This document shows positions 21,068 through 56,883 of a stretch of 64,000 nucleotides of DNA, piece after piece. Origin of the DNA: Aromatoleum aromaticum EbN1 (GTDB taxonomy: Bacteria; Pseudomonadota; Gammaproteobacteria; Burkholderiales; Rhodocyclaceae); NCBI RefSeq assembly GCF_000025965.1, contig NC_006513.1:124001-188000 (forward strand), read 5' to 3'. The translations under genes were made by a program, and so were the position numbers. Below the pieces are notes generated by a model. The model was not told where the DNA came from. It worked only from the letters and a program-made list of their open reading frames with translations, and searched no databases. Within the stretch, counting starts at the first letter, position 1, and each line of letters begins with the position of its first letter.

Positions 21068-21940
21068 ATGGGCAAGAGCATCAACCGTTATGCGATCGAA
21101 GGCCGACTCAGCTTCATTGAGTTCCGGCTTTATTGGGAAGGGCACGTCAATCGCTCGGACATCGTTGAAAAGTTCGATGTGTCGGTCGTTCAGGCATCGA
21201 ACGATTTGAACCGATACCTCGAGCTGGCCCCAGGCAACATGGCATATGACGGCTCGGGTCGCACTTACCGCCCGACGCAAAGCTTTATCCCGATCTACTT
21301 TAAGCCGGATGGCGCGCGGTACCTCGCCCAGATCCGTTCCGTTGGCGAAGGCATCACGCAGACCGACGACACCTTTCTCGGCTGGATGCCCGACATCGCC
21401 CTGGCCGTCGCCCCTGCACGCAGCATAGAGCCCGATCGATTACGAACTATTGTCGGCCTCTTACAGCAATGTCAATCGGCGGAGATCCTCTACCAGTCAC
21501 TCTCCCGCCCCGAACCAATGTGGCGCCGCTTTGCGCCGCATTCGTTGGCATGGGATGGCTTTCGCTGGCATGTCCGCGGGTTCTGCTTCATCGACGGTGT
21601 GTTCAAAGACTTCGTCATTGCGCGGGTTCTCGACATTCGAAACCATCTGCCGGTCGATGACCAACCCGCGCTCGCCTCCGCCGACGCCGACTGGCAGCAA
21701 TTATTCTCACTAAAAATTGCGCCTCACCCAGGCCTTACCGCCGCACAGCGCAAAGGTATCGAGCTCGACTACGGCATGGTCAACGGCGTGGCCGAACTGC
21801 GCACTCGCAAGGCCCTGCTCTACTACACGCTCAAACGTCTTGGGCTCGATACCAACGCCAGTGCCCGCTCGCCTGCCGACCAGCAAATCGTGCTGGCTGA
21901 GCCCCCTGCGCCGCTTACCGCCACGCTCAATCAGGAATAG
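21068..21940 (+). CDS. WYL-domain transcriptional regulator
   Basis: A 290-residue regulator with the wHTH-WYL-WCX layout of BrxR/CapW-like proteins that precede phage-defence operons. The N-terminal winged helix (about 8-65) has RLSFIEFRLYWEGHVNRSDIVEKFDVSVVQASNDL. The WYL domain (about 125-200) includes ILYQSLS, RRFAPHSLAWDGFRWHVRGFC and DFVIARV. The C-terminal WCX-like part covers about 205-290. It is first in the operon and helicase A starts 8 bases after its stop. Its likely job is to repress the operon until a signal binds the WYL domain. Confidence 0.9.
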   Translation: MGKSINRYAIEGRLSFIEFRLYWEGHVNRSDIVEKFDVSVVQASNDLNRYLELAPGNMAYDGSGRTYRPTQSFIPIYFKPDGARYLAQIRSVGEGITQTDDTFLGWMPDIALAVAPARSIEPDRLRTIVGLLQQCQSAEILYQSLSRPEPMWRRFAPHSLAWDGFRWHVRGFCFIDGVFKDFVIARVLDIRNHLPVDDQPALASADADWQQLFSLKIAPHPGLTAAQRKGIELDYGMVNGVAELRTRKALLYYTLKRLGLDTNASARSPADQQIVLAEPPAPLTATLNQE

Positions 21941-21948
21941 AACCAAGA

Positions 21949-24891: not shown

Positions 24892-24949
24892 GCCACGTCA
24901 GTCCGCCGATCCGCTGCACGCGCCACAGAACTGAAGCAGGAGCCTCACC

Positions 24950-27900
24950 ATGCCCGTCGCCGAAGCCGTACAAAGCTTTGCCGGTATCGCCAACGAAAAC
25001 GAATTCTACGGCCACCACTATCTGGCCGAAGTGTTCAAGGGCGACATCCGCGCCCTGATCGAGACCTGGCAGGCGGCCGAAGACGCTGCCGAAGAGAAGT
25101 CTGCCGACTCCCGCGCCCCGCACAGGCGGCTTGGCGGTCTGGGTAGCAAGTGGTTCGCCGCACTCGCCGGCCATCAACGCCTGCGCGACGATGCCGAGCG
25201 CCTCAAGGCTCACGCCCAGCTCCACGCCCCGCTGTTCGAGGCCCTCGGCTACACGCTCAAGGCACAGACGCTTGAGCTGCAAGCGGGCATGCCGATTCCG
25301 GTGTGGGCCAGTTATGGTGAGGCCCACAAGGCACCCCAGCTCGTCATCGTCCCCGCCTACCAGCCCGGTCGCGAGGACGACGACCCGCTCGAGCACGCCC
25401 TGTCCTCCGCCCACTACACTGCCAACCACGATGTTGCCGAAGTGCCGAAGTCGCTCAAGGGCCTGACCTGGCTCGAGATCGTGTCCGAGGCGCTGCTCGG
25501 CACCGACGCCCCGCCGCGCTACGTCATCCTGATTGGCTACAAGGAATGGCTGCTGCTCGACCGCTACAAGTGGCCCAACAACCGCCTGCTGCGTTTCGAC
25601 TGGAGCGAGATCCTCGACCGGAAGGACAACCTCACCCTGCAGGCCACCGCCGCCCTGCTCCACCGCGACAGCCTCGCCCCACAGACCGGCGCAAGCCTAC
25701 TCGACGGCCTCGACGAAAACGCTCACAAGCATGCCTACGGCGTTTCCGAGGATCTCAAGTACGCGCTGCGCGAAGCCATTGAACTGCTCGGCAACGAGGC
25801 CGTGCGGCAACTGCGCCAGAAGGCGCAGGACGCAAAACAGGGTTTCTATTCCGGCAAGGATGCAGTCGACGCCGGCGAGCTCAGTCTCGAAGCCTTGCGC
25901 ATGGTCTACCGCCTGCTCTTCATGTTCTACATCGAAGCGCGCCCCGAGCTCGGCTACGTGCCCATTCAGAAGAGCGAGATTTACGCCAAGGGCTACAGCC
26001 TCGAATCCCTGCGCGACCTCGAACTCACCGCCCTTAACACCCCCGCCGCGCGCGACGGCCGCTACTTCGACGCCACCCTGCGCCGCCTGTTCAGCCTCAT
26101 CGCCCAGGGTTGCGGCATCACCAGCCAACCTCACCTCATCGCCGGCAGCGTCAAAGAAGCCTTTGCGCTGGCCCCGCTCGACAGCAAGCTCTTCGACCCC
26201 GACGCCACCCCGCTGCTCAACCAGGTGGTGTTCCCCAACCATGTGTGGCAACGAGTCATTCGCCTGATGTCGCTCTCGGGCGGCAAGGGCAAAAAGAAGG
26301 GCCGCGTCAGCTACCAGCTGCTGTCCATCAACCAGTTGGGTGCGGTGTACGAAGCGCTCTTGTCCTACCGCGGCTTTTTCGCCCAAGAAGACTTATACGA
26401 AGTGCAGCCGAAGCCAAAGAAAGCGGCGAGCAGCACAAGCGAAGACGAAGATGACGACGACGGCAGCGACGGCGACGAGCCCGCCGCTGGCACCGGCGGT
26501 GGCAGCACCGACATGCTCGATTCCGCCTGGTTCGTACCCGCCAGCCGCATCCATGAATACGAACCCGCAGAACGGGTGCACGACGTGGACGAGCACGGCC
26601 ACAAGGTGCTGCGCAAATATCCGCGCGACACCTTCATCTACCGCCTTGCTGGCCGCGACCGCCAGAAGAGCGCCAGCTACTACACCCCGCAGGTACTCAC
26701 CCGTTGCCTGGTCAAGTACGCGCTCAAGGAACTGCTCGCCGACAAGACCGCCGACGACATCCTCAAGCTCAAAGTGGTCGAGCCCGCGATGGGCAGCGCG
26801 GCGTTCCTGAACGAGGCCGTCAGCCAGCTCGCCGAAGCCTACCTGGAACGCAAACAGCTCGAACTCGGCCGCCGCATCCCGCACGACACTTATGCCACCG
26901 AACTGCAAAAGGTGCGCATGTACCTGGCCGACCGCAACGTGTTCGGCGTCGACTTGAACCCGGTCGCCACCGAGCTCGCCGAAGTCAGCCTGTGGCTCAA
27001 CGCCATTTATGGCGAAGAAGGCAGCGACGGCCAGCCGCCGCGTGCCGCGCGTGTACCGTGGTTCGGCTACCAGCTTTTCTGCGGCAACAGCCTCATCGGC
27101 GCCCGCCGCGAGGTTTATCGCGCAACCAGCTTGCGCCCCCGTGCCAAGCCCGCCTGGTTTGACGAGCCCCCCCGTCGCCTCGACCCACAAAGCCTCGCCT
27201 CGCGGCCAGCTTCCGCTGGCGACGCTGCCAGCCCGGATGCGCTGCGACTAGCTAAAGCCTCCCCTGCCGATGCGGTACTCGCCGCAGAACCTGGCCACCG
27301 AGCGCCAGACGAGATCTACCACTTCCTGTTGCCTGATCCGAGCATGGCCGACTATGGCGACAAGGTGGCCAAGGCACTCTACCCGGAAGATTTCGCACGC
27401 CTCAAGGACTGGCGCAAGGCGTTCTGCAAGCCGCTGGAAGACCACGAACTGTGCCGCCTGCAGCAGTTGTCGGCAGCCATCGACCGCCTGTGGGGCGAGC
27501 ACACCCGGCAATTGGCGGAAGACCGCGCCCGCACCGAGGACCCACTGCCGGTATGGCCGGCCAGCGTCGAAGCGGGTGAAAGCCCCCCCTCGTGCAGCTC
27601 CCGCGCGCACAAGGAAGCCATCCGCAAACAGGGCCTGCTCAACGAAGACGGCCAGCTCGCCACCCCTTACCGGCGCCTCAAGCTGGTCATGGATTACTGG
27701 TGCGCATTGTGGTTCTGGCCTATCACCCAGTCCGCCACCCTGCCTAGCCGTGAGCAATGGTGGATGGAAGTCGGTGCCATTCTTGAAGGCAACATCATCG
27801 ACTTGACGCCGCAGGGCGGGCTGGATTTCTCGGCCCCGGCCGAGCCGCAGGTCCTGCTGCCGGAAGTGGCGCCAGACCTGTTCGGCGCGGTGCAGCCGGA

Positions 27901-29417
27901 ACTGTCCGTTCCGGCCCAAGGCCCCAACCTGCACGACAAGTACGGCCAATTACGCATCAGCAAGTTGCGCGAACACTTCCCACGCATCCGCCACGTGGAA
28001 GCCATCGTCAGGGAGCGCCGCTTCATGCATTGGGAACTGGCCTTTGCCGACGTCTTTGCCCGGCAAGGGGGTTTCGATTTGGTGCTGGGTAACCCACCCT
28101 GGCTGAAGGTGGAATGGCAGGAAGCCGGCGTGCTGGGCGAGGCCAACCCGATGTTTGCGATTCGCAAGCTGTCGGCCAGCGAATTGGCCAAATTGCGCGC
28201 GGAAGCCTTCGATGCGCTACCCGGCCTGCAGGCGGCATGGACCACCGAGTTGGAAGAGGCCGAGGCAACGCAGGCTTTCCTGAATGCGGTGCAGAACTAT
28301 CCGCTACTCAAGGGCGTACAAACCAACCTGTACAAGTGCTTTCTGCCGGTGGGCTGGAAACTTGCGGGCGAACGCGGCGTTTCGGCCTACTTGCATCCCG
28401 AAGGAACTTACGACGATCCAAAAGGCGGTGGGCTGCGGGAGGCTGTTTACACACGACTGCGCGAGCATTTTCAGTTTTCAAATGAGGCTCACCTCTTTGC
28501 AGAAGTACACAATCGCACTCGATTTGGCATAAATATATATGGAGCAACTACTCATTCGCCGAGATTTGATCACATCGCAAATTTGTTCATTCCGACGACT
28601 GTCGATGCAATCTATGCACACGACGGCTCAGGAACAATTGGCGGATTTAAGAACGAGAAGGATGAATGGAATGTTTCTGGTCATAAGGACCGTGTCGTCA
28701 CCGTCGACAACGAAGCGCTGAAAGTATTTGCAGACTTATACGACGAACCCGGCACACCCTCATTCCGCGCTCGGCTTCCGGCACTTCACGCTCGGCAGTT
28801 CGAAAGTGTTCTAGCTAAGATTGCCTCTTACCCCCGTCGTTTGATCGATCTAGGAGCGGAATGCACTTCGACTGAAATGTGGCACGAAACCATGCAGCAA
28901 AAGGATGGCACCATCGTCCGTCGCCCACCTGACTCTGATGGCTTCGCGTCCACTCCATCCGATTGGATAGTATCCGGGCCACATTTTTATCTAGCAAATC
29001 CGATCAACAAGACCCCACGTAAAATTTGCACAGCGAACAAACATTACGACATCATCGATCTCGAAAAAATACCAGACGACTATCTGCCTCGGACAAACTA
29101 CGTTCCCATGGCCAACCGTGATGAGTATCTGCGCCGAACACCTCCGATTATCAGTTTATCGTCTGATGGCTCGGCACCGCGGCCGATTACCGATTTCTTC
29201 CGCCTGACGTTTCGAAACATGTTTCAGCCTAGCAATGAACGGGCGTTACTTTGTGCGATAACACCAACAGGACACGCGCATGTTCACTCGGTAATATCTT
29301 CCGCATTTCTTGATCACGGAGCGCTTGCTGCCGCTGCAGTTGTCTGCCAGTCGATTATCGGGGACTTCTTCATCAAGACGTCTGGCCGTACTGGACTATA
29401 TTCCACCTGGCTCAAGC
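24950..29417 (+). pseudogene. N6-adenine DNA methyltransferase, N-terminal part (split by IS4-type element)
   Basis: First 1489 codons of a 1713-residue Eco57I/PglX/DrmMI-like DNA methyltransferase. The SAM site is VVEPAMGSAAFLNEA near residue 612, followed by FGVDLNPVATELAEVSLWL near 665. The catalytic motif is LVLGNPPWLKV near 1046. Residues 1-600 form a long helical region with an acidic low-complexity tract (EDEDDDDGSDGDEP, about 500). The target-recognition part (28440-29417) is distinctly AT-richer than the rest. ATG has caggag 7 bases upstream. The IS at 29418 cuts after TGLYSTWLK; the present frame adds about 22 IS-encoded residues and stops at 29485. It has the expected architecture of the self-marking enzyme of a defence system. 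Confidence 0.92.
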
Positions 29418-30895
29418 CATGTCGTTATACACAACTCAGGCCGCCTCATCGCGTAGCGCCTGTATGGTGGCGGCGGCATCCATGACGCGCTGCAAGCCCA
29501 GCCAGATGGTCTTCACACCCGGCTCGCCGTCGCCCTTGCGCGCCAGGAAGCCGCCGAGGGTGGCGATCAGGCGCAGCACTTCGTTGATGGTGGGCGGGGT
29601 GGCGGGCGGTTTCTTCTTCGTGAGCAGATACGCGCCGCGGATCTCGTCGGGGTCGAAGAAGAGCGTGGCATCCAGCTCGGGGCAGGTTCGGCCGGTGCGC
29701 ATCAGATGCGCGATGCGCCAGGCGACGACCATGAACAACGCCAGCGCGCGCTCCAGGCGCTCGATGGCGGACAGTTGCAGCGCTTCGATCCGACAGCCGT
29801 TCTTGAGCACGTGAAAGAAAGTCTCGATCTCCCAGCGCGCCCGATACCAGTCGATCAGCTCGACCACGTCGGCAGCCGTCGCAGCTTCCCGGTTGGTGAG
29901 CAGGCGCCACTCCACGGGCTTGGTGCCGGCCGGCGCGCCGATCTCGCGCGCCACGATGCAGGTGGCCGATACCGTGCCCGCCTTGCCCGCAGGCAGGCTG
30001 ACCCGTCGGGCCCACAGTTGCTGGCGCACCTCGCGCGCCTTCTGGCCGTGGCGCGAGCCCATCGTGAACACGATCTCGCCCAGCGGCTCGCCTGCGCAGG
30101 TGTGCGACCACAGCTTCGCGCCCTCTGGCAAGCAACGGTTGTGCTTGGCCCGCACCAGCCAGTCGGCCGGCGTGCCCAGCGTCTGGGCGCGCAGCATCAT
30201 TTCCATCAGATCCGCTTCGCGGTCGGCTACATACACCAGGCGGGTGGTCGCCATCCCCGTGGCCAACTCCGCGACCCGCTCGTAGCCTTCGGGCCAGCGC
30301 GCGCTCTCCTTGATGCTGGTGCGCTCGCCTGGTTCATCGACATCCTCGCGCGCCCACATCCACGCATCGAGCACGCCCAGCGGTTCGCGCTCGGGCGTCA
30401 CCGCATAGGTCGGGTGCAGGTACATGCCGCGGCGCGCCTCGTAGTTCAGCCGCCCCAGACCCGCGATGCCCTGCCCGTTGAAGTCCAGCTCGGTCGTGTC
30501 CTGCAGGCACAACACCACCGGATGGGCACGCATGCGGCTGCGGGTGCGCTCCCAATGCGGCGCCAGGATCGCCTGCCAGTCGACCTCGTCGTTGCCCAGG
30601 AAGCGGTACGCGCCAACCGTCTCGCCCCAGCCCCGGCACGCCATCGGAATGCCCGCCGTCGGCTTCGCCGACAACCGCTCCATCAGCACCTTCGCCCGCT
30701 TGTTCAGTCTCTCGTCGCCCAGCGCCATCCCCGCAAACTCCTCCACCACCCAGCTCTTCGTCGCCAACAGGTCACCCAAATTGCAAAAGTAGACGCGTTT
30801 TTATATGGGTTTACAAGCACTTCGTGTAAGTCATTGAAGGTCAACGATTATTCAGATCGGCGTGCCGGCGGTGCGGAGTTGTGTATAACGAGATG
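29418..30895 (-). mobile_element. IS4-family (IS50/Tn5-like) insertion sequence
   Basis: A 1478-base element with 20-base inverted ends differing at one position (catgtcgttatacacaactc and catctcgttatacacaactc). The ttatacaca core is shared with Tn5/IS50 ends. It is flanked by a 9-base direct repeat ggctcaagc (29409-29417 and 30896-30904), the duplication length of this family. It carries one transposase gene on the minus strand and interrupts the operon methyltransferase. Confidence 0.96.
29436..30779 (-). CDS. Tn5-like transposase (IS4 family)
   Basis: A 447-residue transposase. The N-terminal Tn5-type DNA-binding domain (WVVEEFAGMALGDERLNKRAKVL) is followed by the RNase H-like DDE core: D in QDTTELDFNGQ, D in VADREADLMEM, and E in the YREK-like signature WYRARWEIETFFHVLKNG. 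A C-terminal dimerisation region follows. It is full length without frameshifts, so the element may be active. Confidence 0.95.
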   Translation of the reverse strand: MGDLLATKSWVVEEFAGMALGDERLNKRAKVLMERLSAKPTAGIPMACRGWGETVGAYRFLGNDEVDWQAILAPHWERTRSRMRAHPVVLCLQDTTELDFNGQGIAGLGRLNYEARRGMYLHPTYAVTPEREPLGVLDAWMWAREDVDEPGERTSIKESARWPEGYERVAELATGMATTRLVYVADREADLMEMMLRAQTLGTPADWLVRAKHNRCLPEGAKLWSHTCAGEPLGEIVFTMGSRHGQKAREVRQQLWARRVSLPAGKAGTVSATCIVAREIGAPAGTKPVEWRLLTNREAATAADVVELIDWYRARWEIETFFHVLKNGCRIEALQLSAIERLERALALFMVVAWRIAHLMRTGRTCPELDATLFFDPDEIRGAYLLTKKKPPATPPTINEVLRLIATLGGFLARKGDGEPGVKTIWLGLQRVMDAAATIQALRDEAA

Positions 30896-30904
30896 GGCTC
30901 AAGC

Positions 30905-31578
30905 TACCATGGCTTAACTGTACGCCGGACTTCATCTCCCGATGTCTCGCCCTTAACTGCCTGACCATACACTACGCCCCTTTCTGGTCGGAAGTCTTCG
31001 ACTCCACCTTCAGGCTCCAGCGCTGGAGCCAGGCCGATAACCCACGTCTATCGCGAGACTTCTTCGCCCGCCTTACCCTCGACTGGCAGCGCCACTGCGC
31101 GCTGCGCACCGACTACGCCCGCCGCATGGCGCTGGTGGAAATCGACGTGCTCGTCGCCCAGGCGCTCGGCCTGACCTTAGACGAACTGTTACTGATCTAC
31201 CGTGTGCAATTCCCAGTGATGCAGCAGTACGAGCGCGACACCTGGTACGACATCCACGGTCGCATCGTGTTTACCAACAGTAAGGGGCTCCCCGGTGTCG
31301 GGCTCCCCCGCAAAGCCGCCCGCAGAGACCCCAATTGCCGTATCACCACCCCCGACGGCATCGCGCGCGAAGGCCAGTTTGGCTGGGAAGATCTCTACAA
31401 GAACGGCGAACCCCAGGTCCCCGACGGCACCCTCGTCCAGCAATGGGTAGAAGACGACACCCTGCCCTCCGGCAAGTACATCAAGGAACGGCGCTGGACG
31501 GCACCGTTTTCGCGGGCGAACCGGGAGGAGGATTACCGGATCGCGTGGGCGTTTTTTGAGCAGGAACAAACCGCATGA
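30905..31578 (+). pseudogene. N6-adenine DNA methyltransferase, C-terminal part
   Basis: Continues the reading frame of 24950-29417 exactly once the IS and one 9-base repeat are removed: TGLYSTWLK-LPWLNCTPDF. The sum 4468 + 674 = 5142 bases gives 1713 codons plus stop. The segment carries RLTLDWQRHCALRTDYARRMALVEIDVLVAQALGL, typical of C-terminal tails of these methylases. An internal ATG at 31126 could express only a 150-residue fragment. Its stop overlaps the next start by ATGA. Confidence 0.9.
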
Positions 31579-32930
31579 CAAACGCCGCCTCCACTTTCAC
31601 GGTTGTCAATGACGAAGTGCTTTGCAGTGCGATTGCTGGAACGAGCAGCACGCTCGTCTATGTGGCGCCCGGCATCACCAAGCCGGTGGTCGAGGCTTTA
31701 GCCGCCAGCCTGGATTCCCAGCCGAATCTGGTCGCAACCGTGATCGTCGATCTCGACCCCGAGGTATACCGCCTGGGTTACGGCACAGAGGAAGGATTAC
31801 GCGCGCTTCAGGCGCTTGTCTCACGGCAGCATCTGGAGCTGCGCCAGCAGGAAGGTCTTCGTATCGGCTTGCTGATTACTGATGGTCAGACGATGCTGTA
31901 CTCGCCGACACCGCTTCTGATCGAAGCGGGCTCGACATCATCGAATAAACCAAACGCGGTCGTAATCCGTGCCGGGAGCGACTCTACCGCAGCCTTGATG
32001 CAAGCCTGCGCAGTGCCTGGTCACGAAAACGAAGCAACACCGAATCTCGCCGAGGTCGGGCGGACAGCCGCCACGCCTGTTGCTGTGGACGCGTCCCTAA
32101 AGGCGCTCAAGGAAATCCCACCAAAGAGGTTTGACGTTGCACGAATCGAGCGGGTTTTCGAGTCGAAGATCCAGTTTGTAGAACTCGAGCTGACCGGCTA
32201 CCGACTTTCAACAAAGAAGGTGACCATCCCGAACGACCTCCTTGTGGGCGAAGACGCGGCACTCAAGGAAAGGCTGAAGAACAGCTTCACCCTGCTCCAG
32301 GGCGAGCAAATGCTGAAGATTGAGATCCCGGACTTCGACGCCAACCTCGAGCAGGTCACGGGCGAAGATGGAAAACCGAAGACAGTTACCTGGTCTGAAG
32401 CGGAACTCGAAAAACAGCGCAAAGCACTCTATGACGACTTTCTGATCAACGTGCCGCGCTTCGGCCAAGTGATCATGCGCAATCGTCGACCCGATTTCGA
32501 CGCCAGGCTGATGCGGCTGCGGAAACAGATCGAAGCGTTCAAGTCTGCGGTCGAACAGACCATTGGCGAATCCATATCCAATGCGATTGCGGACCTCGCC
32601 AAGACGCTAAGCCCCCGAGTAAAGGAAAAGCTGCCGGCGCGATACGCCAAGTTTCTGACTACGAACGATCCTACCGATGAAGACCTGCTGTGCTTGATCA
32701 CCAACGACCTTGATCGCACGTTCGGAGGTATCAAGGGGCTGTTCAACCCGGAGCTTCGTTGTGTCTTCAAGGATGTGACCTATGAGTCGATCCAGGACAA
32801 GAACTTCAGGAATCAGCTGAGTGAGGCGATGCGCAAGGAGGGGGGCGAGCACCTTGCCCGGCAGTTATTCTCGGAGCATGACGCCGCACCGGAAGCTTGC
32901 GAATCGCAGAAAGAATTGTTTCCGGGCTGA
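31575..32930 (+). CDS. PLD-like protein without HKD motif
   Basis: A 451-residue protein, translationally coupled to the methyltransferase by an ATGA overlap. The N-terminal 130 residues resemble a phospholipase D-type alpha/beta domain (LVYVAPGITKPVVEALAASL, ATVIVDLDPEVYRLGYGTEEGL, LRIGLLITDGQTMLYSPTPLLIEAG), but no HxKxxxxD motif is present. Nuclease activity is therefore unlikely. The rest (about 170-430) is helical and charged. By position it could stand where DrmC, a PLD protein, stands in DISARM. The assignment is tentative. Confidence 0.6.
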   Translation: MTNAASTFTVVNDEVLCSAIAGTSSTLVYVAPGITKPVVEALAASLDSQPNLVATVIVDLDPEVYRLGYGTEEGLRALQALVSRQHLELRQQEGLRIGLLITDGQTMLYSPTPLLIEAGSTSSNKPNAVVIRAGSDSTAALMQACAVPGHENEATPNLAEVGRTAATPVAVDASLKALKEIPPKRFDVARIERVFESKIQFVELELTGYRLSTKKVTIPNDLLVGEDAALKERLKNSFTLLQGEQMLKIEIPDFDANLEQVTGEDGKPKTVTWSEAELEKQRKALYDDFLINVPRFGQVIMRNRRPDFDARLMRLRKQIEAFKSAVEQTIGESISNAIADLAKTLSPRVKEKLPARYAKFLTTNDPTDEDLLCLITNDLDRTFGGIKGLFNPELRCVFKDVTYESIQDKNFRNQLSEAMRKEGGEHLARQLFSEHDAAPEACESQKELFPG

Positions 32931-33034
32931 ATCGGCGGGCTCACCTGATGAGCCACGCCCCTGAGTATCCTCGGATACGGGGTCTGTCCAAACAACAAGA
33001 AATCGTTCCTTGATACGAACGCGGGGGTCCAAGA

Positions 33035-34185: not shown

Positions 34186-34306
34186 TCGGTGACAATTAGC
34201 CTGGCCGGTCGACGACAACTATCTTGGCCGGTTGGATCTGTAGCCGGGAAGGTCCGGAAGCGAGGGATAGAGTGCTCTTCTGACGAGAGACGTTGGGAGA
34301 CGCTCA

Positions 34307-36597: not shown

Positions 36598-36676
36598 ACC
36601 CCTCATGCCTCGCTTCCACCGGCCAGGATAATTGACGTCGACAGGCCACGGTAATTGACGCCGGGCACCGACGTGG

Positions 36677-45765: not shown

Positions 45766-45882
45766 ACGACTGTTTTCAGGTCTCCGGATTTAGCGAGCGG
45801 TGACGCTACCCGTATTGGTTAAGCTTATGATCGCCCTCGACGATCGAGCACGCGCATACAAGAACAACAGGATAGAGACCTA

Positions 45883-48800
45883 ATGCTGCCTTCCCTCCTC
45901 GCCCGCGACATCCAGAACGGGTTGAAGCAGTTTCTGATTACTGGTTTCGAGCCGTCCGATCCGCTTTTCTCCGGGGTGATGAAGCGTTTTGCAAACGATG
46001 AGGCTCGCTGGCTGAAGGGACCCTACTTGCAGATCGGCCTACCCTTTCGGGCCGGCAGCGCAGGGAGGCATTTCTTTGGTGGCTTTGAGCTCGAATACCC
46101 GGGTTACTCGCATCAAGAGGCCGCTTGGCAGCGTCTATCAACAACGCGAGGGGCGGCGAGCACGCTGGTGGCTACTGGCACGGGCAGCGGCAAGACGGAG
46201 TGCTTTCTCTACCCTGTGCTCGACCACTGCGCGCGCGCACTACTCGACGCACAGGCGGGCATCAAGGCGCTGATCATCTACCCGATGAACGCCCTGGCCA
46301 CCGACCAGGCAAGGCGCTTTGCCGAGGTCATCGCCCAGACATCCCGGTTCAGGGACATTCGCGTGGGCCTGTTCGTGGGCGGGCGCTCGGGCAAGGACGG
46401 CCGTGGCCAGATGGCGATGACTGCGAATGGGGTGATCACTGACCGCGAAACCTTGCGCCGCGACCCGCCTGACATCCTGCTGACCAACTACAAGATGCTG
46501 GACTACCTGCTGATCCGCCCCAAGGACCGGCAGTTGTGGGACAAGAACGCGCCCGACACACTGCGCTATGTGGTGGTCGATGAACTGCATACGTTCGACG
46601 GTGCGCAGGGCACGGATCTCGCACTGCTGCTGCGCCGACTGCGCGCACGCCTTCGCTCGCCCGAGGAACATCTGATTTGTGCCGGCACCTCGGCAACGCT
46701 GGGGGGGAACGCGGATTCAGCGCCGCTGCGCGAATACGCACGGCAGGTTTTTGGCGTGGACTTCCCGCCGGCATCGGTAGTGACCGAGGATCGAAAGTCC
46801 GAGTCCGAATTTCTGGACGACGTTGCGATTGAACATGTTCTTTATCCGCGCGACGATTTCGCCGCGGTCCTCGATGCTTCACCCTACTCAACGCCGGAAG
46901 CTGCGGTTTCCGCCTGGTTCGAGCTGTTCTTTCCGGGTCACAAGGCACCACCGGATGTGGCGAACGCGGCCTGGCGCGGCGCACTGGGCAACATGCTTAA
47001 GAAGCATGTGCTGTTCGTGAATCTGCTCAAGCTGTTGCGTGGGCGCATTGTCGATTTTGCCGAGCTGCAGGCACAGATGATCGGTCCCTTGCCAGAGGCT
47101 GCCCGGCCGCACATCGCCCGCGTGCTCGACGCCTTGCTGGTGCTGGTGGCGTGGTCGCGTGATCCGGCGGCTCCGGGCCGGCCATTGGTTACGCTCCGCG
47201 TTCAGCTGTGGATGCGCGAGCTGCGCCGGATGGTGACTCAGGTGCTGTCGGATCCGAAACGCATCGAGTTGGTGCCCGACAGCAGCGTAAAGCGACAAGC
47301 GGGAAAGCTCTACTTGCCGCTGGTGCAGTGCGCAGACTGCCACACTACCGGTTGGTTGGGCCGTAAGCCCAACGGGCAGACAGTCATCAGCACGGACCTG
47401 GACGAGATCTACAACACCTGGTTCTCTGGCCAGCAGGAAGCGCTGCGGCTGTATGCGACAGAGGGCTTGAGCCGGCCACTTTGCGACGGCATCTCTCAGC
47501 ACCTGTGCACCAGCTGCGCTCACCTGCAGAGCGCCGGCCACTGCACTGCCTGCGGGCATGAGGATCTGGTGGCGGTTTTCCGCGTTACCGCAACCCGCAA
47601 CAGCACGAACAAGGACGGGCTTGCTTTCGCGTGGCACGACCCAACCTGCCCGGCCTGCGGCAGTCGGCATCGCCAGATTCTGCTCGGTGCCCGCAACGCC
47701 ACGCTGGGTGCAGTCGCCATCGAGCAGAGTTGGGCGAGCCCGTTCAATGATGACAAAAAACTGATCGCGTTTTCGGATTCGGTGCAGGATGCCGCGCACC
47801 GTGCGGGTTTCTTCACCGCGCGCACCTATCTGAATACCGTGCGTACGGGTCTGGCGAAAGTCATCGACCAGATGGCCGCCCAGGGCGATGAACCACTGCG
47901 GTGGAGCTCCTTCCTGGAACGGGCGGCGACGACTTGGCGCACAGGTGGTAGTACGCTGGAGATGCCGAGGGAAACCTTCGTCGCTGAGTTCATCGGCCCG
48001 AACATGACTTGGCAGCGCGACTGGGCCGAATCACTGCAGTTGCACGACCGACTGCCGGGCGATAGCAAGTTGCCCGAACGCGTCAGGAAGCGGCTGGGAT
48101 GGCAAGCGTTTGCCGAATTTACTTATCTGAGCCGTCGCGGGCGCAACCTCGACACCATCGGAAAGGCCACCCTTGCGCCAAAGGCAGACGAGCTCAGGGG
48201 GGCGGTTACGAGCTTGTTGCCACGCCTGCATGAGACGTTTGGCATTCGTCATGCCAACGCCGACACGGTGTTTCAGTGGGTGTGGGGTTTGTTGTGCCAT
48301 TTGCGTCAGCGCGGCGCGGTGGCGCACCCTGAACTGGGCACCTACACTCGTGATGGCAACATTTTTGCGTTCACTCATACCCAAGGGCGCGCCGAATGGT
48401 TGCCCGGCTTGGGGGAAAAGACACCCCATCCGGTGTTTCTTACGCTGGGGCAACACCGGGGATTTGATCGAGTCGTCGGGTCGGCCGGAGCAAGTTTTTA
48501 CCAGACCTGGTTTAAGGCCTGCTTTGCCAGCGGACTTCTGCCAGAAAAGGCCGATCTCGAGATTTATACAGCAGCCATCGAGGTGCTCGTAGAGCACGGA
48601 TTGCTGCTGCGCCTCGATTCCACACAGGGCGATGTGATCGCGGCCAACCCCGATGCCCTTTTCCTGCATACGCGAGTGGCACGCATTGGCTCGGCGCAGG
48701 GCAAGCGCCATTTGAGCGTGCCGGCAGACGTTGCGTCTGCTCTTCTCGGCATGCCTTGTCTCGACGCTCCCCAAGAGCGCTACGCCGAAATTGACACAGC

Positions 48801-49571
48801 AGATGGTTGGCTTGCAGACCGCTTCAGTCGCGGCGACCTGCGACGTGTGTATTCCGCTGAGCATACCGGCCTGCTGCAACGCGACCAGCGCGAGGCGCTC
48901 GAAGCGCGTTTCAAGGCCAAGGATCCCGCGCCTTGGTACGAGAACCTGCTGTCAGCCACCCCGACGCTGGAGATGGGGGTGGATATCGGTGACCTGTCGT
49001 CCGTGATGCTGTGTTCGGTGCCGCCCAACCAGGCCAGCTACCTGCAGCGCATTGGCCGTGCTGGCCGGCACGATGGTAACGCCCTGGCAACCACGCTGGC
49101 AGACGGCGCCAGTCCGCACGATTTGTACTTTTTTGAAGACACAGCAGAGATGCTTGCCGGTGAAGTCATGCCGCCCGGCATCTTCCTGAAGGCGGCAGAG
49201 GTGTTGCGCCGGCAACTGTTCGCGTTTTGCCTGGACGACTGGGTGGGGTCCGGTGTGCCAGAGACCGCCCTGCCCGACAAGACATCAGCTGCGCTTGATG
49301 CGCGCGACAGCGTGGACACCACACGCTTCCCCGCGACCTTTCTGGATTATCTGCACCTTCACGAGGATCGCTTGCTTGCCGGCTTTATGGCCTTGCTGGG
49401 CAGTGATCTCGACGACCGGGTCGCTGCCCGCCTTCAGGGCTTTATGCAGGGCACCGAGCACGAAGACGCCTTGCGACTGCGGCTGAACAAGTTTCTGGAG
49501 GAACTGGCAAAGGAGCGTCAGTCCCACAGTCAGCGCGCAAAACAGATCAAGAAGCAGATCGACATTCTGAA
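45883..49571 (+). pseudogene. DEAD-type helicase with DUF1998, N-terminal part (split by IS5 element)
   Basis: First 1229 codons of a 2131-residue helicase of the DruE / fused DrmA-DrmB type. Walker A is VATGTGSGKTECF (about residues 97-109), motif II VVDELHTFDG (about 230), motif III AGTSATLG, and second-lobe motifs SATPTLEMGVDIGDLS (about 1023) and QRIGRAGRHDGNA. Between the lobes lie zinc-type cysteine pairs (CADC, CTSC, CTAC, CPAC; about 485-610). The 117-base gap before it has only a weak ribosome site. The frame is cut at KKQIDILK by the IS at 49572; the present frame adds 17 residues. Confidence 0.92.
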
Positions 49572-50851
49572 GGGCACCTCGAATAACCCGAGGTCTTCAA
49601 TGAATCCTGCCGCGCATCTATGACCGCGAGCGAATCCGGTCCAATTTCTCTGATGAATCACCGCTTTTTCCCGGCGGTGTCGCCCCGTTTTCGCTTCGAA
49701 TCGCCTGAGGCAGCGGCGATTCGACCCATTTCGGGCGTCAGAAGGCCTCGATTCCGGCCTTCCTGAAATAGACCAGCCGCTTCAAGTTGTAGCAGGCCGC
49801 CATCATCGTCATCGCAAAGTTCGCCCGCTCCTGACCGATGGTACGCAGCAGCTTGCCACCCATCTGCTCGATGGCCCCGAATACGTGCTCGACCCGCGCG
49901 CGCGTCTTGGCGATGCGTTTGTTGCGCCGTTGCTGGCACTCGGACAGCGGCTTGTTGCGCTTGCCCTTGCGCTGGATCCGATTCCGAAACCCGTTCTCCT
50001 TCAGCCAGGCTTCACGCTGCTCGGACGGGTAGCCCCGGTCGGCATAAACATCGCGGCTCGTGTTGCGCGTGTCGAAGACGTTGTCGAAGTGCTGGCTGTC
50101 GTGCGTGCTGGCCGTGTCGGTCTCGAGTCTGCGGATGATCTTGTATTTCTTGTCTGCGTTGATCGAGAGCTTGTAGCCGAAGTGGCTCTTGCCGTGCTTC
50201 TTCGTCCAGGTCGCATCGAGATCCTTCTGGCGCCGCTTCGCCGGGCGCCACGAGGCGGGCATTGCGCCTTGCTCGATCAGTTCCTTCTCGCCGCGCCTGT
50301 TGTGCTGCTTGGGCGCCGGCACCAAGGTGGCGTCGATGATCTGACCGCCGCGCGCGATGAAGCCCTTCTGGAGCAGCTGCGCCGAGACCCCGTCGAACAA
50401 GGCCTTCGCCCCCGCCTCACCGATCCGGTTCTCGAAGGTCCACACCGTGGTGCGGTCCGGGACGTTCGTCGCGTTCGCCAGGCCGCAGAAGCGCTTGTAG
50501 CTCATGCGGTCGAGCAACTGGTATTCCATCTGCTCGTCCGAGAGGTTGTACAGGCGCTTCACCACCAGGATGCGCACCATCGTCTCGGTCGGGTACGGCG
50601 GGCGCCCGCCTTGCGCACTCACCGGACGGGGCGCCACCCGATCAACCTCGGCCGCCAACGCCGCAAAGTCGATGTGCGACTCGATCTCGGCCAGCGGGTC
50701 GCCCAGCGCGTCGATCTTCTGTCGGTGGGCATCAAAGGCAAACAGGTCGGTCTTGATGGCGCTGCGCGGTTTCATCGATGTCGGCTGTGGCGAGATTCAG
50801 GAGGATGTAATTTTACCAAGAGCGGGAGAGGCGAGGTTTTTCGAGGCGCCC
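49572..50851 (-). mobile_element. IS5-family insertion sequence
   Basis: A 1280-base element with inverted ends gggcacctcgaataacc and gggcgcctcgaaaaacc (right end read on the other strand), flanked by the 4-base repeat tgaa (49568-49571 and 50852-50855). One transposase gene lies on the minus strand. Removal restores the helicase frame (QIDIL-KKRPQDEA). Confidence 0.94.
49738..50775 (-). CDS. IS5-family transposase
   Basis: A 345-residue DDE transposase with an N-terminal DUF772-type domain (GRPPYPTETMVRILVVKRLYNLSDEQMEYQLLDR) and core residues D in GGQIIDATLVPAP, D in RDVYADRGYPS and E in RARVEHVFGAIEQMGGK with the Y(2)R(3)E(6)R-like signature region. It is complete and possibly active. The opposite-strand open frame in this stretch is an artefact of GC content. 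Confidence 0.94.
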   Translation of the reverse strand: MKPRSAIKTDLFAFDAHRQKIDALGDPLAEIESHIDFAALAAEVDRVAPRPVSAQGGRPPYPTETMVRILVVKRLYNLSDEQMEYQLLDRMSYKRFCGLANATNVPDRTTVWTFENRIGEAGAKALFDGVSAQLLQKGFIARGGQIIDATLVPAPKQHNRRGEKELIEQGAMPASWRPAKRRQKDLDATWTKKHGKSHFGYKLSINADKKYKIIRRLETDTASTHDSQHFDNVFDTRNTSRDVYADRGYPSEQREAWLKENGFRNRIQRKGKRNKPLSECQQRRNKRIAKTRARVEHVFGAIEQMGGKLLRTIGQERANFAMTMMAACYNLKRLVYFRKAGIEAF

Positions 50852-50855
50852 TGAA

Positions 50856-53562
50856 GAAACGGCCTCAGGACGAAGCCACCGGAGCCGAGATCGACCAACT
50901 CGACCGCGAGCGGCAGAAGGCCCTGGAACTGGTGAAAGAGATCAATCAGCGCGAGCTGCTCAATACCCTGACCGATGCGGGTTTGATCCCGAACTACGCT
51001 TTTCCTGAAGCCGGTGTGGAGCTCAAATCCCTGCTTTGGCGCAAGCGCGGTAGCGACGACCCTGACACCGCGGCGTATATTTCGCTGCCCGCAGAGCGCT
51101 ATGAGCGTCCAGCCCAGTCGGCACTGTCTGAGTTCGCACCCGAGAACGTATTCTATGCTAACCAGCGGCGGGTAGAGATCGACCAGATCAACATGACTTT
51201 GTCGTCGCTCGAGTCGTGGCGTCTGTGCCCCACCTGCCAGCACATGGAGAACCTCGAGATTCAAGCGGACAGCCGTGCCGCCTGCCCGCGCTGCGGGGAT
51301 CCGATGTGGGCGAATATTGCGCAGAAGCGTTCGCTATTGCGATTTCGCCAGGCTATCGCAAACAGCAATGACACCGAGGTTCGCATCGACGATAGCGCCG
51401 AGGACCGCGAACCCAAGTTTTACGTACGGCAGCTACTCGCGGACTTCGAACCCGAGAAGGTTGTGGAAGCCTGGCGCCTGAAGGCTCGAGACCTTCCATT
51501 CGGCTTTGAATTCATCGAACAGGTCCAGTTTCGCGACATCAACTTCGGCGAGCCGACCAAACCCGGTGAAGCCTATAACGTGGCGGGTCAGCAAAGATCC
51601 CGCCCGGGCTTCAAGCTCTGCCGGCACTGCGGTCAGATTCAGCGGGCGCCACGCAATGCCCGCGAGCGCGATGCTGGTCAGTTGCATGCCTTCGACTGCG
51701 AGAAGCGCGGCACGAACGACGTCGAGAACCTGATCGACTGTCTGTATTTGTACCGTGAGTTTTCATCCGAGGCATTGCGCATCCTGGTGCCGTACACCCG
51801 CTCAGGCGTGGATGAAGAGGCGGTTCAGTCCTTCATGGCGGCGGTTCAACTTGGCTTGAAAAAACGCTTCGGCGGCAAGGTGGACCACCTGCGCATGCTG
51901 ACGCAGCAAGAAGCCGGCAAGGACGGCGCGCCAGGTAGGCAGTATGTGCTGTTGTACGACTCGGTACCCGGTGGCACCGGCTATCTGCACCAGTTGTTGG
52001 CCAACGAGGCCCAAACCCTGGTGGACGTCCTGCGCCTTGCCCTGTCGCATCTGAGCGCATGCGCCTGCAATGCAGATCCGGAGAAGGATGGCTGCTACCG
52101 CTGTGTGTATCAGTATCGGCTTGGTCGTGCCATGGCCAGCGTCTCGCGCGATCGGGCACGTTCGATTCTTGAGCATTTGGTGGCCGGCCTCGACCATCTC
52201 GAAAAGGTGCCCACGGTCGCAGAGATCTACATCAATCCGAACTTCGATTCCGAGCTCGAGGCGCGATTTATCGAAGCCTTGCGCCGGCTTGGCGGCGAGG
52301 CCGGACTGCCGTTCGTAAAGCTGGTGCAAGACATTGTCCACGGTAAATCCGGTTATCTGCTGCAGGTAGGCGAGCAGCAGTACTGGGTTGAGCCGCAGGT
52401 GGACCTCGGGCCCACTGACGGCGTGATCGTGCCATGCCGCCCCGATTTCATGCTCTGGCCGGTACAAAGTCGCTCCAAGCGGCGACCGATTGCAGTGTTC
52501 TGTGACGGCTGGGCCTATCACCACGATACGGCTCGCGTCGATGCGAAAAAACGAAACGCGCTGGTGATGAGCGGCAAATACTGGGTGTGGTCGGCAACCT
52601 GGGAAGATGTGAAAACTGCGCTGGACGGTTCGGTTGAAACCGCGCTTGCGGGCATGCTCGAGCCAATGTATTACGGTGGCCAAGAGACTCTTTCACCGCC
52701 ACTGAGGGCGATGATTGACGAGCGCTTCGTGTCGCGCAATGCCGTGGCCGTGCTGATCGACTGGCTCGGCAAACCAGTTGGCGAAGCGCTTGACGAACAC
52801 AGTTTGCGCATGGCGCGCTCCGCCGGGGCGACCGCCTTTCGCATGGTGCCGAATCCAAGGGTGCCGGAACTCGCCGATGCTCGAGATGAACTGGCCAAGT
52901 TCTGGCTGAACGTGGGCGCCCTGCCCTGCGACCGACCAGAAAAGTACGTCCCCTGCGGCAACATCACGCAACCCGAGGTACGCCTGCGCTATCTATGGCC
53001 GGCCCTGCTGGCCGGCGGCTCTGCCAACGGTATGCCAGAGAAAAGCCCGGGCTTCGTGATACTTGATGACGCTTTCGCTCACGACGAGCCTGCGCGCCAT
53101 CTCGCCTGGCGCCGCTGGCTGGCGCTCTTTAACCACTTCCAGCTTCTGCCAGGCATCATGCTCGCCACGCAGGACGGTCTGGAAGCGGCAGATCACGCCT
53201 CGTTGTCGATGCCAGCTTCGAGCAACCCGGCAAGCTCGTCCCAGGGGGCGGCGCTGGCAGCGGCCTGGGAGCAAGTGCTCGATCAAGCGATGTCCGAACT
53301 CACACCGAGCCTGATGGACGTGGTCGGTGCGGGGGTTCCTCCACCCGACGAAGTGGGATTCGAGTACGCTGACCCGAAAAATGCCGACACCATCATCGCA
53401 GAAGCCGAATTGGCTTGGTGCGCCAAGAAGCTCGTATTGCTGTTGCCTGCTCACACGAACTATCAGGCTGTGTGGAAAGCACACGGCTGGACCAGCGTCG
53501 TTGCCGAAGGTGAATGGACGCAGCGGTTGATAAGCGAAATCAAAGAAGGAACAACGGCATGA
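50856..53562 (+). pseudogene. DEAD-type helicase with DUF1998, C-terminal part
   Basis: Continues 45883-49571: 3689 + 2707 = 6396 bases, 2131 residues plus stop. It begins KKRPQDEATGAEIDQLDRER, a helical linker. A zinc pair CPTC...CPRC (about residue 1357) precedes DUF1998, which shows ILVPYTRSGVDEEAV, the hallmark DSVPGGTGY (about 1600) and the CxC-x7-CYRCVYQY zinc site. After it, about residues 1720-1830 read like a PD-(D/E)XK/DUF559-type fold: PDFML, then PIAVFCDGWAYHHD and DAKKRNALVMSGKYWVW. The C-terminal 300 residues are unassigned. The stop overlaps the next gene by ATGA. Confidence 0.9.
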
Positions 53563-55634
53563 GCCTGAAACCCAAGGTCGCACTCTCGCAAGACTTTCTG
53601 GCGCGGTTGGCAAAAATTCCGGGATCAGTGCAGGGAAAGATCCTGAAATGGGCGCTGAAGTTTCAGAATGACCCGACCTCGTCCGGCATCAACTATGAGT
53701 CGATCAATGGCGCACGAGACCCGAACCTGAAGTCGGTCAGGGTCGATCAGGACTGGCGTGGCATCGTATTCAAACCGCCGGCGGGTGACGTCTACGTCCT
53801 GCTCTATGTCGATCATCATGACGACGCTTACCGTTGGGCGGAAGGGAAGAAGCTTGCGGTTAACCCGGTCACCGGTGCCCTGCAGGTGTTCGCAGTCGAG
53901 AGTGTCATGGAACCGGTACTGGCCCAAGCACGTTCGGAGGCTGCGACGCATAGGGAGATTGAAACGGAAGCACCTTCAGCCTCGTTGTTCGGCGAACAAT
54001 CGGACCATGAACTGCTCAGCCTTGGCGCCCCGGCGGAACTGCTTGGGCAGCTAAGGTCGATCGCAACAGATGTCGAACTCGACGCCCTGCAATCCCTGCT
54101 GCCGGTAGAGGCTTACGAGGGCCTGTTCCTTGTCGCTGCAGGCGATACCGTTGCGCAGGTGCTGGGCGCCCGCGAAACCCGAGTCGATCAGAAGGTAAAT
54201 ACCGACGACTTTGCCGGAGCCATCGAAACACCTGAGTCTCAAGCTCGCTTCATAGTCGTCGCTGACGAAGAAACGATGACCGCGATCCTGAACGCACCCC
54301 TTGCGCAGTGGCGCGTGTTTCTTCACCCGACGCAGCGCAAGCTTTCTATCGGCGATCGCAGTGGTTCGATGCGGGTACTGGGCGGAGCAGGAACCGGCAA
54401 GACGGTCCTAGCGATGCATCGCGCGAAATGGCTCGCCGAAAACCGGGCGAGCAGCGACAGCAAAGTGTTCTTTACCACCTTTACCCGAAATCTTGCTGCA
54501 GACATTGAGGACAACCTCAAGACGCTGTGTCCGCCCGCCACGATGCAGAAGATCGAGGTAAAGAACCTGGACGCTTGGGTCCATGGTTTCCTGCGTCGGC
54601 ACAAGTACGAACATGCAATCATCTACAACCGCAACGCGGGAGAAGCGGCCGAAGCGTGGCAGCGCGCACTGGCATTACAAGACACCAGCATGGGCCTGCC
54701 CTCAACGTTCTACGAGGAAGAACTGGAGCGAGTGGTACTGGCGCAGGGCGTAACCACTCGCGACGAATACCGCATGGCGAAGCGGGCTGGCCGTGGAACG
54801 ATTCTGAGTCGCAGCAAGCGCGACGCAATCTGGCCTGTGTTCGAGGAGTACCGTGCACAACTGGCAAGCCGCAAGCTTAAGGAAGTCGATGACGCCTATC
54901 GCGATGCAGTCAGTCTGCTCAGGAACGCTCCAGTGACTTACTGTGCGGCCGTGATCGACGAGACGCAGGATTTCGGCCCCCAGGCACTTAAGCTGTTGCG
55001 CGCAATGCTACCCACGGGGGAGAACGATCTCTTCTTCGTTGGCGACGGACACCAGCGCATCTACAGCCGCAATCGTGCTGCCATGAGCGCATGCGGCATC
55101 AACATCCGCGGGCGCTCACGGAAACTGTATCTGAACTATCGCACAACCGAGGAGATCCGCCTGCAGGCCGTGGCGGTCCTGGAAGGCTGCGAGGTGGACG
55201 ACCTTGACGATGGCTCGGACGAGGTCAAACGATACAAGTCAATCTCGCACGGCCCAGCCCCTGAGCATCTGCAATTTCAGCATCTGGACGAAGCCCTCAG
55301 GGCGATTGACGTCATTGCCGCCGCAAGCCGCGATGGGGGCGAGTCGCTGTGTGTGATTGCGCCGACCCAAGCAATGACGGAAGCAGTAGCGCGACATTTG
55401 AAGGAATGCGACATCTCTACAAAATTGTTGGGACCTGAAGAGCGCGACCAGCCCGACTCGACTACTGTGCGCATTGCGACCATGCACCGGGCGAAGGGTC
55501 TGGAGTTCGATGAAGTTGCCCTGCTTATTCCCGAAGCGTGGGGCAAAAGTGGCGATCGTGCACAGGATCAACGTCGCCTTCAGTACGTTGCAATGACGCG
55601 GGCAAAGCGCAAAGTCACGGTCATCCGTTACTGA
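53559..55634 (+). CDS. RelE/ParE-like domain fused to UvrD-type helicase
   Basis: A 691-residue protein, coupled by ATGA to the DUF1998 helicase with aagga upstream. Residues 1-105 have RelE/ParE toxin-fold character (FLARLAKIPGSVQGKILKWALKF, NLKSVRVDQDWRGIVF, VYVLLYVDHHDDAYRWA). The SF1 helicase follows: Walker A GGAGTGKTVLAMHRAKWLA (about 275-293), motif II VIDETQDFG (about 465), motif V TMHRAKGLEFDEVALLIP (about 640) and YVAMTRAKRK. It is the last operon gene and intact. The toxin-like part may be an RNA-binding module rather than an RNase; no antitoxin gene follows. Confidence 0.9.
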   Translation: MSLKPKVALSQDFLARLAKIPGSVQGKILKWALKFQNDPTSSGINYESINGARDPNLKSVRVDQDWRGIVFKPPAGDVYVLLYVDHHDDAYRWAEGKKLAVNPVTGALQVFAVESVMEPVLAQARSEAATHREIETEAPSASLFGEQSDHELLSLGAPAELLGQLRSIATDVELDALQSLLPVEAYEGLFLVAAGDTVAQVLGARETRVDQKVNTDDFAGAIETPESQARFIVVADEETMTAILNAPLAQWRVFLHPTQRKLSIGDRSGSMRVLGGAGTGKTVLAMHRAKWLAENRASSDSKVFFTTFTRNLAADIEDNLKTLCPPATMQKIEVKNLDAWVHGFLRRHKYEHAIIYNRNAGEAAEAWQRALALQDTSMGLPSTFYEEELERVVLAQGVTTRDEYRMAKRAGRGTILSRSKRDAIWPVFEEYRAQLASRKLKEVDDAYRDAVSLLRNAPVTYCAAVIDETQDFGPQALKLLRAMLPTGENDLFFVGDGHQRIYSRNRAAMSACGINIRGRSRKLYLNYRTTEEIRLQAVAVLEGCEVDDLDDGSDEVKRYKSISHGPAPEHLQFQHLDEALRAIDVIAAASRDGGESLCVIAPTQAMTEAVARHLKECDISTKLLGPEERDQPDSTTVRIATMHRAKGLEFDEVALLIPEAWGKSGDRAQDQRRLQYVAMTRAKRKVTVIRY

Positions 55635-56805: not shown

Positions 56806-56883
56806 GTGCGAGGCCGCGCTCTGCCATGCAATTGGGGTTTGACCGACTGCCCCGAGGCGGCGCCCGCTGGCAAGATGGGCGCC

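Follow-up and report, generated by a model that had tools for sequence, protein, structure and literature searches.

A probable ARMADA type II operon of Aromatoleum aromaticum EbN1 with a portable GHKL ATPase-helicase pair in its variable slot

We analyzed a 64,000-nucleotide stretch of Aromatoleum aromaticum EbN1 (contig NC_006513.1, positions 124,001 to 188,000; hereafter the window, whose own numbering is used throughout) that carries eight codirectional plus-strand genes at 21068-55634. In order, they encode a WYL regulator, SNF2 helicase A, an N6-adenine methyltransferase, a 451-residue protein (p451), a sacsin-type GHKL ATPase (the giant), SNF2 helicase B (helB), a DEAD/MZB (DUF1998) helicase, and a UvrD helicase. 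The original prediction, made from the sequence letters, had proposed this set and order, which the open reading frame (ORF) list, Pfam, and PADLOC bear out, and had read it as a distinct defense system or an unrecognized hybrid of DISARM and Druantia. Is the operon one of these, or is it a described system to which other genes were added? We think it likely that this is a WYL-regulated ARMADA type II operon whose slot between ArmB and ArmC took up p451 and a portable module made of the giant and helB.

The core genes match ARMADA type II

In a preprint of September 2025, ARMADA was shown to act against phages and was presented as the "missing link" that joins DISARM to Druantia (Bell et al., PMC12458937; here and below, statements on cited articles refer to the part of their text that was accessible). 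Type II has a strict order of a BrxHII-like helicase (ArmA), a PglX-like methyltransferase (ArmB), a YprA-like protein (ArmC), and a GajB-like protein with a RelE-like N-terminus (ArmD). In Escherichia coli, all four genes are required, and the action is direct and non-abortive (PMC12458937). The E. coli plasmid NZ_CP026578.2 carries the same four genes as ArmA-B-C-D, adjoining zorA2; we took a gene pair beside this operon for Druantia III.

The window shares all four Arm protein types and the A-B-C-D order with ARMADA II (see Table 1 for identities). The published mutant positions sit on the expected motifs of the E. coli plasmid proteins, and all eight mutated residues are conserved in the window (8/8). 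The equivalents of K136/D236 are K134/D234 in ArmA, with intact Walker motifs; those of G605/N971 are G615/N1048 in ArmB, where the S-adenosylmethionine and NPPW motifs are kept (N1048 lies in NPPW); those of K110/D234 are K104/D233 in ArmC; and those of K266/D454 are K296/D482 in ArmD, numbered from 53514. ArmD lies directly after ArmC, and its RelE-like N-terminus is predicted by homology to E. coli ArmD, a RelE-GajB protein (PMC12458937). The Vsr-type nuclease on the C-terminus of ArmC is a further ARMADA II feature, and the window shows homology to the C-terminus of E. coli ArmC.

Judged by sequence, the four core genes are ARMADA type II, with ArmC a probable member of its clade, and are thus already described. 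The original prediction had rightly sensed a DISARM- and Druantia-like composite with extra parts; the unrecognized hybrid is rejected, since ARMADA II already covers the core (PMC12458937). This existing description accounts for four of the eight genes and leaves p451, the giant, and helB outside it. The window differs from ARMADA II in the WYL gene upstream, in the position of p451, the giant, and helB between ArmB and ArmC, and in the insertion sequences (IS) that break ArmB, the giant, and ArmC. The WYL protein is 53% identical to one encoded directly upstream of ARMADA II in Haematobacter (L114; G and L numbers are our labels for genomes and loci) and 30-31% identical to the WYL proteins of G336 and G341.

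The ARMADA II order is also syntenic in further genomes beyond the E. coli plasmid. On a Cylindrospermopsis plasmid (L115), the genes are ordered C-D-A-B, not A-B-C-D. Near the ARMADA II operon of a Microvirga plasmid, a 1584-residue DUF3883-domain protein is encoded on the opposite strand (L113:18336-23090). ArmD-like UvrD proteins at 32-37% identity (15 of 17 matches inspected, L178-L192; G114 and G242 left out) had no ARMADA neighbor in the 5-20 kb read and were not counted as ARMADA. Around a 42-44% ArmD homolog in G516 (L174:8393-10474), no ArmA, ArmB, or ArmC was found within the 35 kb read.

One junction of the operon is variable

The ArmA-ArmB gap is -4 to 32 bp in all 13 ARMADA II loci measured, and the ArmC-ArmD gap is -14 to 35 bp in all 17; the window values are 58 bp and, by longest ORF, -49 bp. 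The ArmB-ArmC gap ranges from -1 to 12,748 bp over 16 loci, being at most 206 bp in four (E. coli, Pseudanabaena, Microvirga, and G458) and at least 0.6 kb in the other 12. For G729, tblastn places it at about 5.6 kb. These figures are approximate, as gene starts were chosen by rule, and Cylindrospermopsis, G729, G593, and G500 were not usable for every junction. Six of the 30 listed plasmid matches for ArmC were inspected (H28, H45, H47-H49, and H53).

The contents of the slot vary. Pfam matches of 13 slot proteins from other loci include MoxR-like, M78-like, MotA and OmpA (Zorya-like), weak HNH_3, and two dynamin-like proteins, as well as YjcZ, patatin, Schlafen AlbA_2, protein kinase, HNH, and NOV_C. 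The M78-like protein is common to Haematobacter and Rhodoblastus at 62.8% identity. Comparable embedded effectors are described in BREX (Rakesh and Krishnan, PMC12839542). Our literature search, with supplements and most subscription journals outside it, found no report of embedded accessory genes or of an ArmB-ArmC slot for ARMADA, including in the accessible text of PMC12458937.

We consider p451, the giant, and helB better read as accessories recruited into this variable slot than as obligate subunits, because a close relative of the giant-helB pair stands alone in Azoarcus sp. Aa7, a genome without an ArmC match.

The 9.2 kb slot of Amphritea G767 (L176:520-9765) carries MotA and OmpA (Zorya-like), weakly HNH-like, dynamin-like, YjcZ, and patatin genes; two or more systems may be nested in this one ARMADA operon.

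The giant and helB form a portable module

We scanned 84,980 genomes for helB and kept 80 of at least 544 relatives, of which the 45 at 40% identity or more were used. Three plasmid loci (H3, H5, and H7, of 25 listed plasmid matches) brought the module set to 48 loci. The nearest named helB among the 80 kept is that of Azoarcus sp. Aa7, at 76%. Giant sequence precedes helB on the same strand in every locus with at least 7.5 kb upstream (37/37) and in eight of the 11 with less; it was not found in L032, L047, and L057. The giant is split over several ORFs in L016, L018, L034, L051, L054, L060, L071, L072, and L073. As ORFs of at least 1800 residues, 33 giants could be read, 28 of them single ORFs of 2399-2598 residues. 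In 30 of the 33, no more than 50 bp separate the end of the giant from the aligned helB start, or the two overlap; the spacing is 0.6-0.9 kb in L033, L035, and L072. The pair is thus portable across loci as a two-gene module, and we regard it as an unnamed candidate system.

The original prediction of a dual GHKL protein holds: both sites of the window giant have an intact N-box and intact glycine motifs. The second site has its N-box and G-box in all 33 giants; at the first site of the 28 full-size giants, the G-box is present in 28 and the N-box in 26. The C-terminal 685 residues of the giant gave a nearly all-helical model (predicted local distance difference test, pLDDT, 84) for which a structure search returned no PDB match (best E 0.94), and a nuclease in this region was rejected on these grounds.

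The module is found in several contexts. It is nested in ARMADA between ArmB and ArmC in the window and G851 and between ArmA- and ArmB-like genes in Candidatus Tharpella (L070), and it precedes such genes in Rhodoblastus (L074). In L050 it is nested in BREX, as PglX-giant-helB-PglZ-BrxL; it adjoins BREX genes in L065, L043, L051, and the family members G920 and G928, and lies near DISARM-type genes in L016, L044, L038, and L063. In Azoarcus Aa7 (L030), WYL-giant-helB is free-standing, and the genome has no ArmC match at E<=1e-20. Seven of 17 module genomes searched have some ArmC match at that threshold, three of them strong (G765, G767, and G780). PADLOC matched 15 of 19 neighbors, with none for L045, L046, L071, and L016; these 19 were hand-picked from the 48 loci and yield no frequency.

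In a tree of 52 helB sequences, the ARMADA-labeled rows need three changes, at least two of them forced by well-supported branches; BREX-labeled rows need six (at least three forced) and DISARM-labeled rows four (two forced). L040, L042, L052, and L073, with partial matches nearby, were given no label. We regard it as an evenly balanced proposition that the giant-helB pair is a widespread, unnamed, self-sufficient defense system that also serves as a plug-in, having entered ARMADA and BREX operons on several occasions, preferentially behind a PglX-family gene. Close helB relatives are sparse: at E<=1e-120 they occur in 4 of 199 genomes of the family, own genome included, and of 398 sampled genomes of the phylum, the window's own is the only one with a helB match at E 1e-150.

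Three other identities were considered. The PADLOC DrmD model fits helB (892 bits), but a Trichormus DISARM cluster near the module has a separate annotated drmD, so helB was not taken as DISARM DrmD. WonAB and VcSduA of Vibrio cholerae (PMC12137116) have a different make-up in the text available. The giant was rejected as Tiamat because its match to PADLOC TmtA, which we take to be the system of that name, covers the GHKL segment only, at most about 126 residues of models 1302-1782 positions long. Within the limits of the literature search given above, no name for the GHKL-helB pair was found; the accessible text of PMC12458937 and PMC12839542 is without GHKL, sacsin, or Hsp90.

Beside the free-standing module of Azoarcus Aa7 are two convergent ThiF/E1-like genes (L030:12937-14957). 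In Amphritea atlantica, TraF and TraH genes adjoin the module (L036:13514-15858), which a conjugative element may carry. Rhodoferax G765 has an ArmC start (L175, 68% to the window) and a 65% helB module (L031) on different contigs as assembled.

The composite is kept in a second genus

The original prediction had asked for conservation of the neighborhood in other genomes, and it was found. G851, from another genus of the same family, carries ArmA-ArmB-p451-giant-helB-ArmC-ArmD, seven genes in the window order with one gene added; no WYL gene was found within 11.7 kb upstream. Identities to the window are 76% (ArmA), 68/61% (ArmB), 75% (p451), 76/62% (giant), 78% (helB), 73/68% (ArmC), and 72% (ArmD). 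The ORFs are too closely spaced to leave room for an insertion sequence. The added gene (L205:9086-10042), between p451 and the giant, encodes a NOV_C/DUF3883 protein (PF13020) that weakly resembles the C-terminal part of a TmtA model. The plant protein NO VEIN also joins a sacsin-like ATPase with a NOV_C/DUF3883 domain.

p451 is a probable recurrent pseudo-PLD protein

The p451 protein had been described as degenerate and PLD-like. The AlphaFold2 model (four sequences, pLDDT 67) shows a PLD-type fold with modest confidence, and the best Foldseek hit is 1byr, the PLD-family Nuc (E 8.7e-4, template modeling score 0.58 by target length, partial coverage), with FAM83 (4urj) also matched. The HxK(x4)D motif is absent from all six aligned sequences, and p451 as an active PLD nuclease was rejected on this ground. 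The description stands, its fold at modest confidence and its degeneracy in each sequence aligned.

One p451 homolog sits in an Acinetobacter BREX-1 operon, flanked by pglX and pglZ; others follow HmaB- and HmaC-like genes in an HMA-like operon (G100) and ArmB in G851. The protein may thus be a recurrent partner of adenine-methyltransferase systems. Two loci weigh against a strict link: the annotated genes beside a Caballeronia homolog include no adenine methyltransferase, and the sole recognized neighbor in G139 is a WYL gene. Counting its own genome, p451 is present in 6 of 300 genomes of the order.

Alternative explanations

Several points weigh against an ARMADA II operon with a recruited, independent module. 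No nuclease was found in the module, and we infer its mechanistic steps. The G542 slot carries, by eye, lipoprotein-like ORFs and not defense genes. The giant and helB of G851 each fall into two reading frames, and that locus may itself be damaged or misassembled. Since the helB sequences of the window, G851, and free-standing Azoarcus share one clade, the precise composite of seven genes amounts to a single inherited arrangement. Shuffling the labels gave no sign of clustering by context, counts as low arising in 159 of 500 shuffles for ARMADA and in 500 of 500 for both BREX and DISARM; a mobile module would look like this, but the result does not speak for a function inside ARMADA. The tree counts compare 14 labeled rows only, with L050 on a long branch and the L205 row 46% filled. 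The other 38 of 52 rows are without an ARMADA, BREX, or DISARM label, 18 of them from loci shorter than 17 kb, and labels were sought with 20 reference proteins only; those of L063 and L038 rest on genes several kb off, and those of L051 and L043 on one gene.

Two unrelated systems could have been stacked by chance, uncoupled, in an insertion-prone locus, the window being a decaying defense island. Three IS interrupt the operon and further transposase genes lie on both flanks, and elsewhere the module adjoins varied defense-type genes (pAgo, restriction enzymes, SoFic, and PDC-S68). We nevertheless find this unlikely. The insertion point recurs directly behind PglX-family genes, on the same strand and in the same operon (ArmB plus p451 in the window and G851, pglX in L050), with L070 as an exception to this position, and the A-B and C-D junctions stay closed in the measured ARMADA II loci.

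It is still less probable, in our judgment, that the eight genes are a distinct, obligate machine in which the giant, helicase B, and p451 are integral subunits needed by the ARMADA-like enzymes. Four genes suffice for ARMADA II in E. coli (PMC12458937), the slot of other ARMADA II loci is empty or holds other genes, the near relative Azoarcus Aa7 has the module without ARMADA, and G851 has no WYL gene in the upstream region read. What speaks for such a machine is the tight packing at the ATGA of 31575 and the 20-nt overlap at 43111-43130, the seven-gene order kept in G851 at 61-78% identity, and the separate ArmA-module-ArmB arrangement of L070, outside the window's clade.

Comparison with other defense systems

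A DISARM class 1 or Druantia variant instead of ARMADA is highly improbable: the PADLOC DrmD, DrmMI, and DruE models do match several of the genes, but drmA and drmB are absent as separate genes, as is a catalytic drmC, neither DruH nor DruABCD is among the listed matches (ten window ORFs scanned, up to 25 matches listed per protein), the start of ArmC aligns better to E. coli ArmC (43%, 337 bits) than to the DruE-like protein encoded on that plasmid (36%, 100 bits), and ArmD is present.

With DISARM class 1 the operon shares an SNF2 helicase, an adenine methyltransferase, a DUF1998 helicase, and a PLD-fold protein, and helB scores on PADLOC DrmD. However, DrmA and DrmB are separate genes in DISARM, whereas the window has one YprA/ArmC gene with the DEAD and MZB parts in the same frame; its PLD protein is degenerate, and ArmD, the giant, and the second SNF2 helicase are extra. 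Druantia shares the DruE/YprA relative ArmC and differs in that the window has a methyltransferase, ArmA, and ArmD. BREX type 1 and HMA share a PglX-family or other adenine methyltransferase and embedded accessory genes (PMC12839542), and p451 and, in another genome, the GHKL-helB pair occur between pglX and pglZ; none of BrxC, PglZ, BrxL, or HmaC is among the listed PADLOC matches of the ten window ORFs. Tiamat (TmtA) and MORC/paraMORC likewise have a GHKL ATPase domain in a defense protein, and in some MORC operons an SNF2 helicase accompanies the GHKL ATPase (PMC2292703). Unlike these, the giant is sacsin-type and about 2,500 residues long, carries two GHKL sites, and has a DrmD-like helicase of its own.

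A possible mode of action

ArmA and ArmB would survey and mark DNA, separating self from foreign by adenine methylation, and ArmC and ArmD would process the foreign DNA, with a nuclease tail predicted for ArmC from its relation to ArmC/DruE. DruE, a related protein, loads onto 3' single-stranded DNA and cuts DNA (PMC13192584). In the module, helB may travel along DNA as a sensor or DNA-tracking motor. The giant could be a large nucleotide-gated clamp or chaperone-like scaffold whose opening and closing are driven by ATP at the two GHKL sites, a proposal drawn from its nearly all-helical C-terminal model, which has no PDB match, and from the lack of a nuclease match in the module. It would hold DNA or helB in an active state, and embedded copies would hand targets to the nuclease of the host system. 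Placement behind methyltransferase genes suggests that the module extends the sensing or effector reach of its hosts; the free-standing copies argue that it can work alone.

A puzzling hybrid thereby becomes a testable pattern: in the ARMADA II loci measured, the A-B and C-D junctions are closed and a single slot behind the methyltransferase gene is open, with fillers that vary by bacterium. Among these fillers is a large, conserved pair of ATPase and helicase, which is found by itself as well as in ARMADA and BREX. Should the pair be an independent defense system, it is an unnamed family with ATPase domains resembling those of the neurodegeneration protein sacsin; should it work solely together with its hosts, it offers a way to ask how methylation-based systems gain extra sensors or effectors. 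If the plug-in reading is true, these systems share one accessory socket for exchangeable sensor/effector modules.

Gene layout and damage by insertion sequences

The features of the operon are listed in Table 1. The sequence contains every junction noted in the original prediction: ATGA at 31575 and at 53559, and the overlap at 43111-43130. The operon is not intact: three of its eight genes, ArmB, the giant, and ArmC, are interrupted by IS elements. The sizes of 2534 and 2131 residues proposed for the giant and ArmC are reconstructions across these elements, and they fit the relatives (the 28 single-ORF giants above, and an ArmC of 2133 residues in G851).

Table 1. Positions of operon genes, gene pieces, and insertion sequences in the window
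Feature	Position	Strand	Evidence
WYL-domain regulator	21068..21940	+	Operon's first gene; PF13280 1.4e-5
ArmA, SNF2/RapA-type (BrxHII-like) helicase, 980 aa	21949..24891	+	49.5% over 937 residues to E. coli plasmid ArmA
ArmB catalytic part, PglX-like N6-adenine methyltransferase	24950..29416	+	Eco57I/N6_Mtase Pfam; 51% over 1364 residues to E. coli ArmB
Tn5/IS4-type IS in ArmB, near the gene's 3' end	29417..30896	-	Tnp Tn5 dimerisation domain; terminal inverted repeats
ArmB C-terminal piece, 226 codons	30898..31578	+	In frame with ORF 31126-31578
p451, degenerate PLD-like accessory protein	31575..32930	+	AlphaFold2 model, Foldseek, homologs in other loci
GHKL giant N-terminal piece, first sacsin-type ATPase domain	33035..34192	+	SACS 2.8e-23; ELIQNADDA / GKFGLGMKS
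IS21-type element in giant	34185..36671 (right end approximate)	+	istA 34307-35803, istB 35800-36597
GHKL giant remainder, second GHKL domain and helical C-terminus	36687..43130	+	SACS 5.3e-9; ELFQNADDA / HWGRPIN / TGKFGLGFKS
helB, DrmD-like SNF2 helicase, giant's partner	43111..45765	+	PADLOC DrmD PDLC02634, 892 bits over 876 residues
ArmC helicase part, YprA/DruE-like DEAD helicase	45883..49600 (end approximate)	+	42% over 1196 residues to E. coli ArmC
IS5-type (DUF772/DDE_Tnp_1) IS in ArmC	49600..50830 (ends approximate)	-	Transposase 49738-50775
ArmC DUF1998/MZB and C-terminal part	50830..53562 (start approximate)	+	MZB 3.2e-13; 36% over 853 residues to E. coli ArmC
ArmD, RelE-like domain (by homology) fused to GajB/UvrD-like helicase	53559..55634	+	UvrD Pfam; 46.5% over 665 residues to E. 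coli ArmD

The Tn5/IS4-type element is bounded by 21-nt terminal inverted repeats at 29417-29437 and 30876-30896. The ArmB piece beyond it is 40-63% identical to the ArmB C-termini of those ARMADA II loci that reach that far (61% in G851). The IS21-type element cuts the giant after about residue 385; the ORF of the N-terminal piece extends a few codons into it, and the start of the second piece at 36687 is the ORF caller's choice. No inverted repeat of at least 14 nt was found for the IS5-type element in ArmC. The window copy of the operon is probably inactive, because the giant is disrupted and so is ArmC, which is required in E. coli.

The locus is insertion-rich. An IS630-type transposase gene (19713-20099) and an EAL-GGDEF response regulator gene (17158-19380) lie upstream of the operon, and IS66 and IS21-type transposase genes lie downstream (56806-59931).

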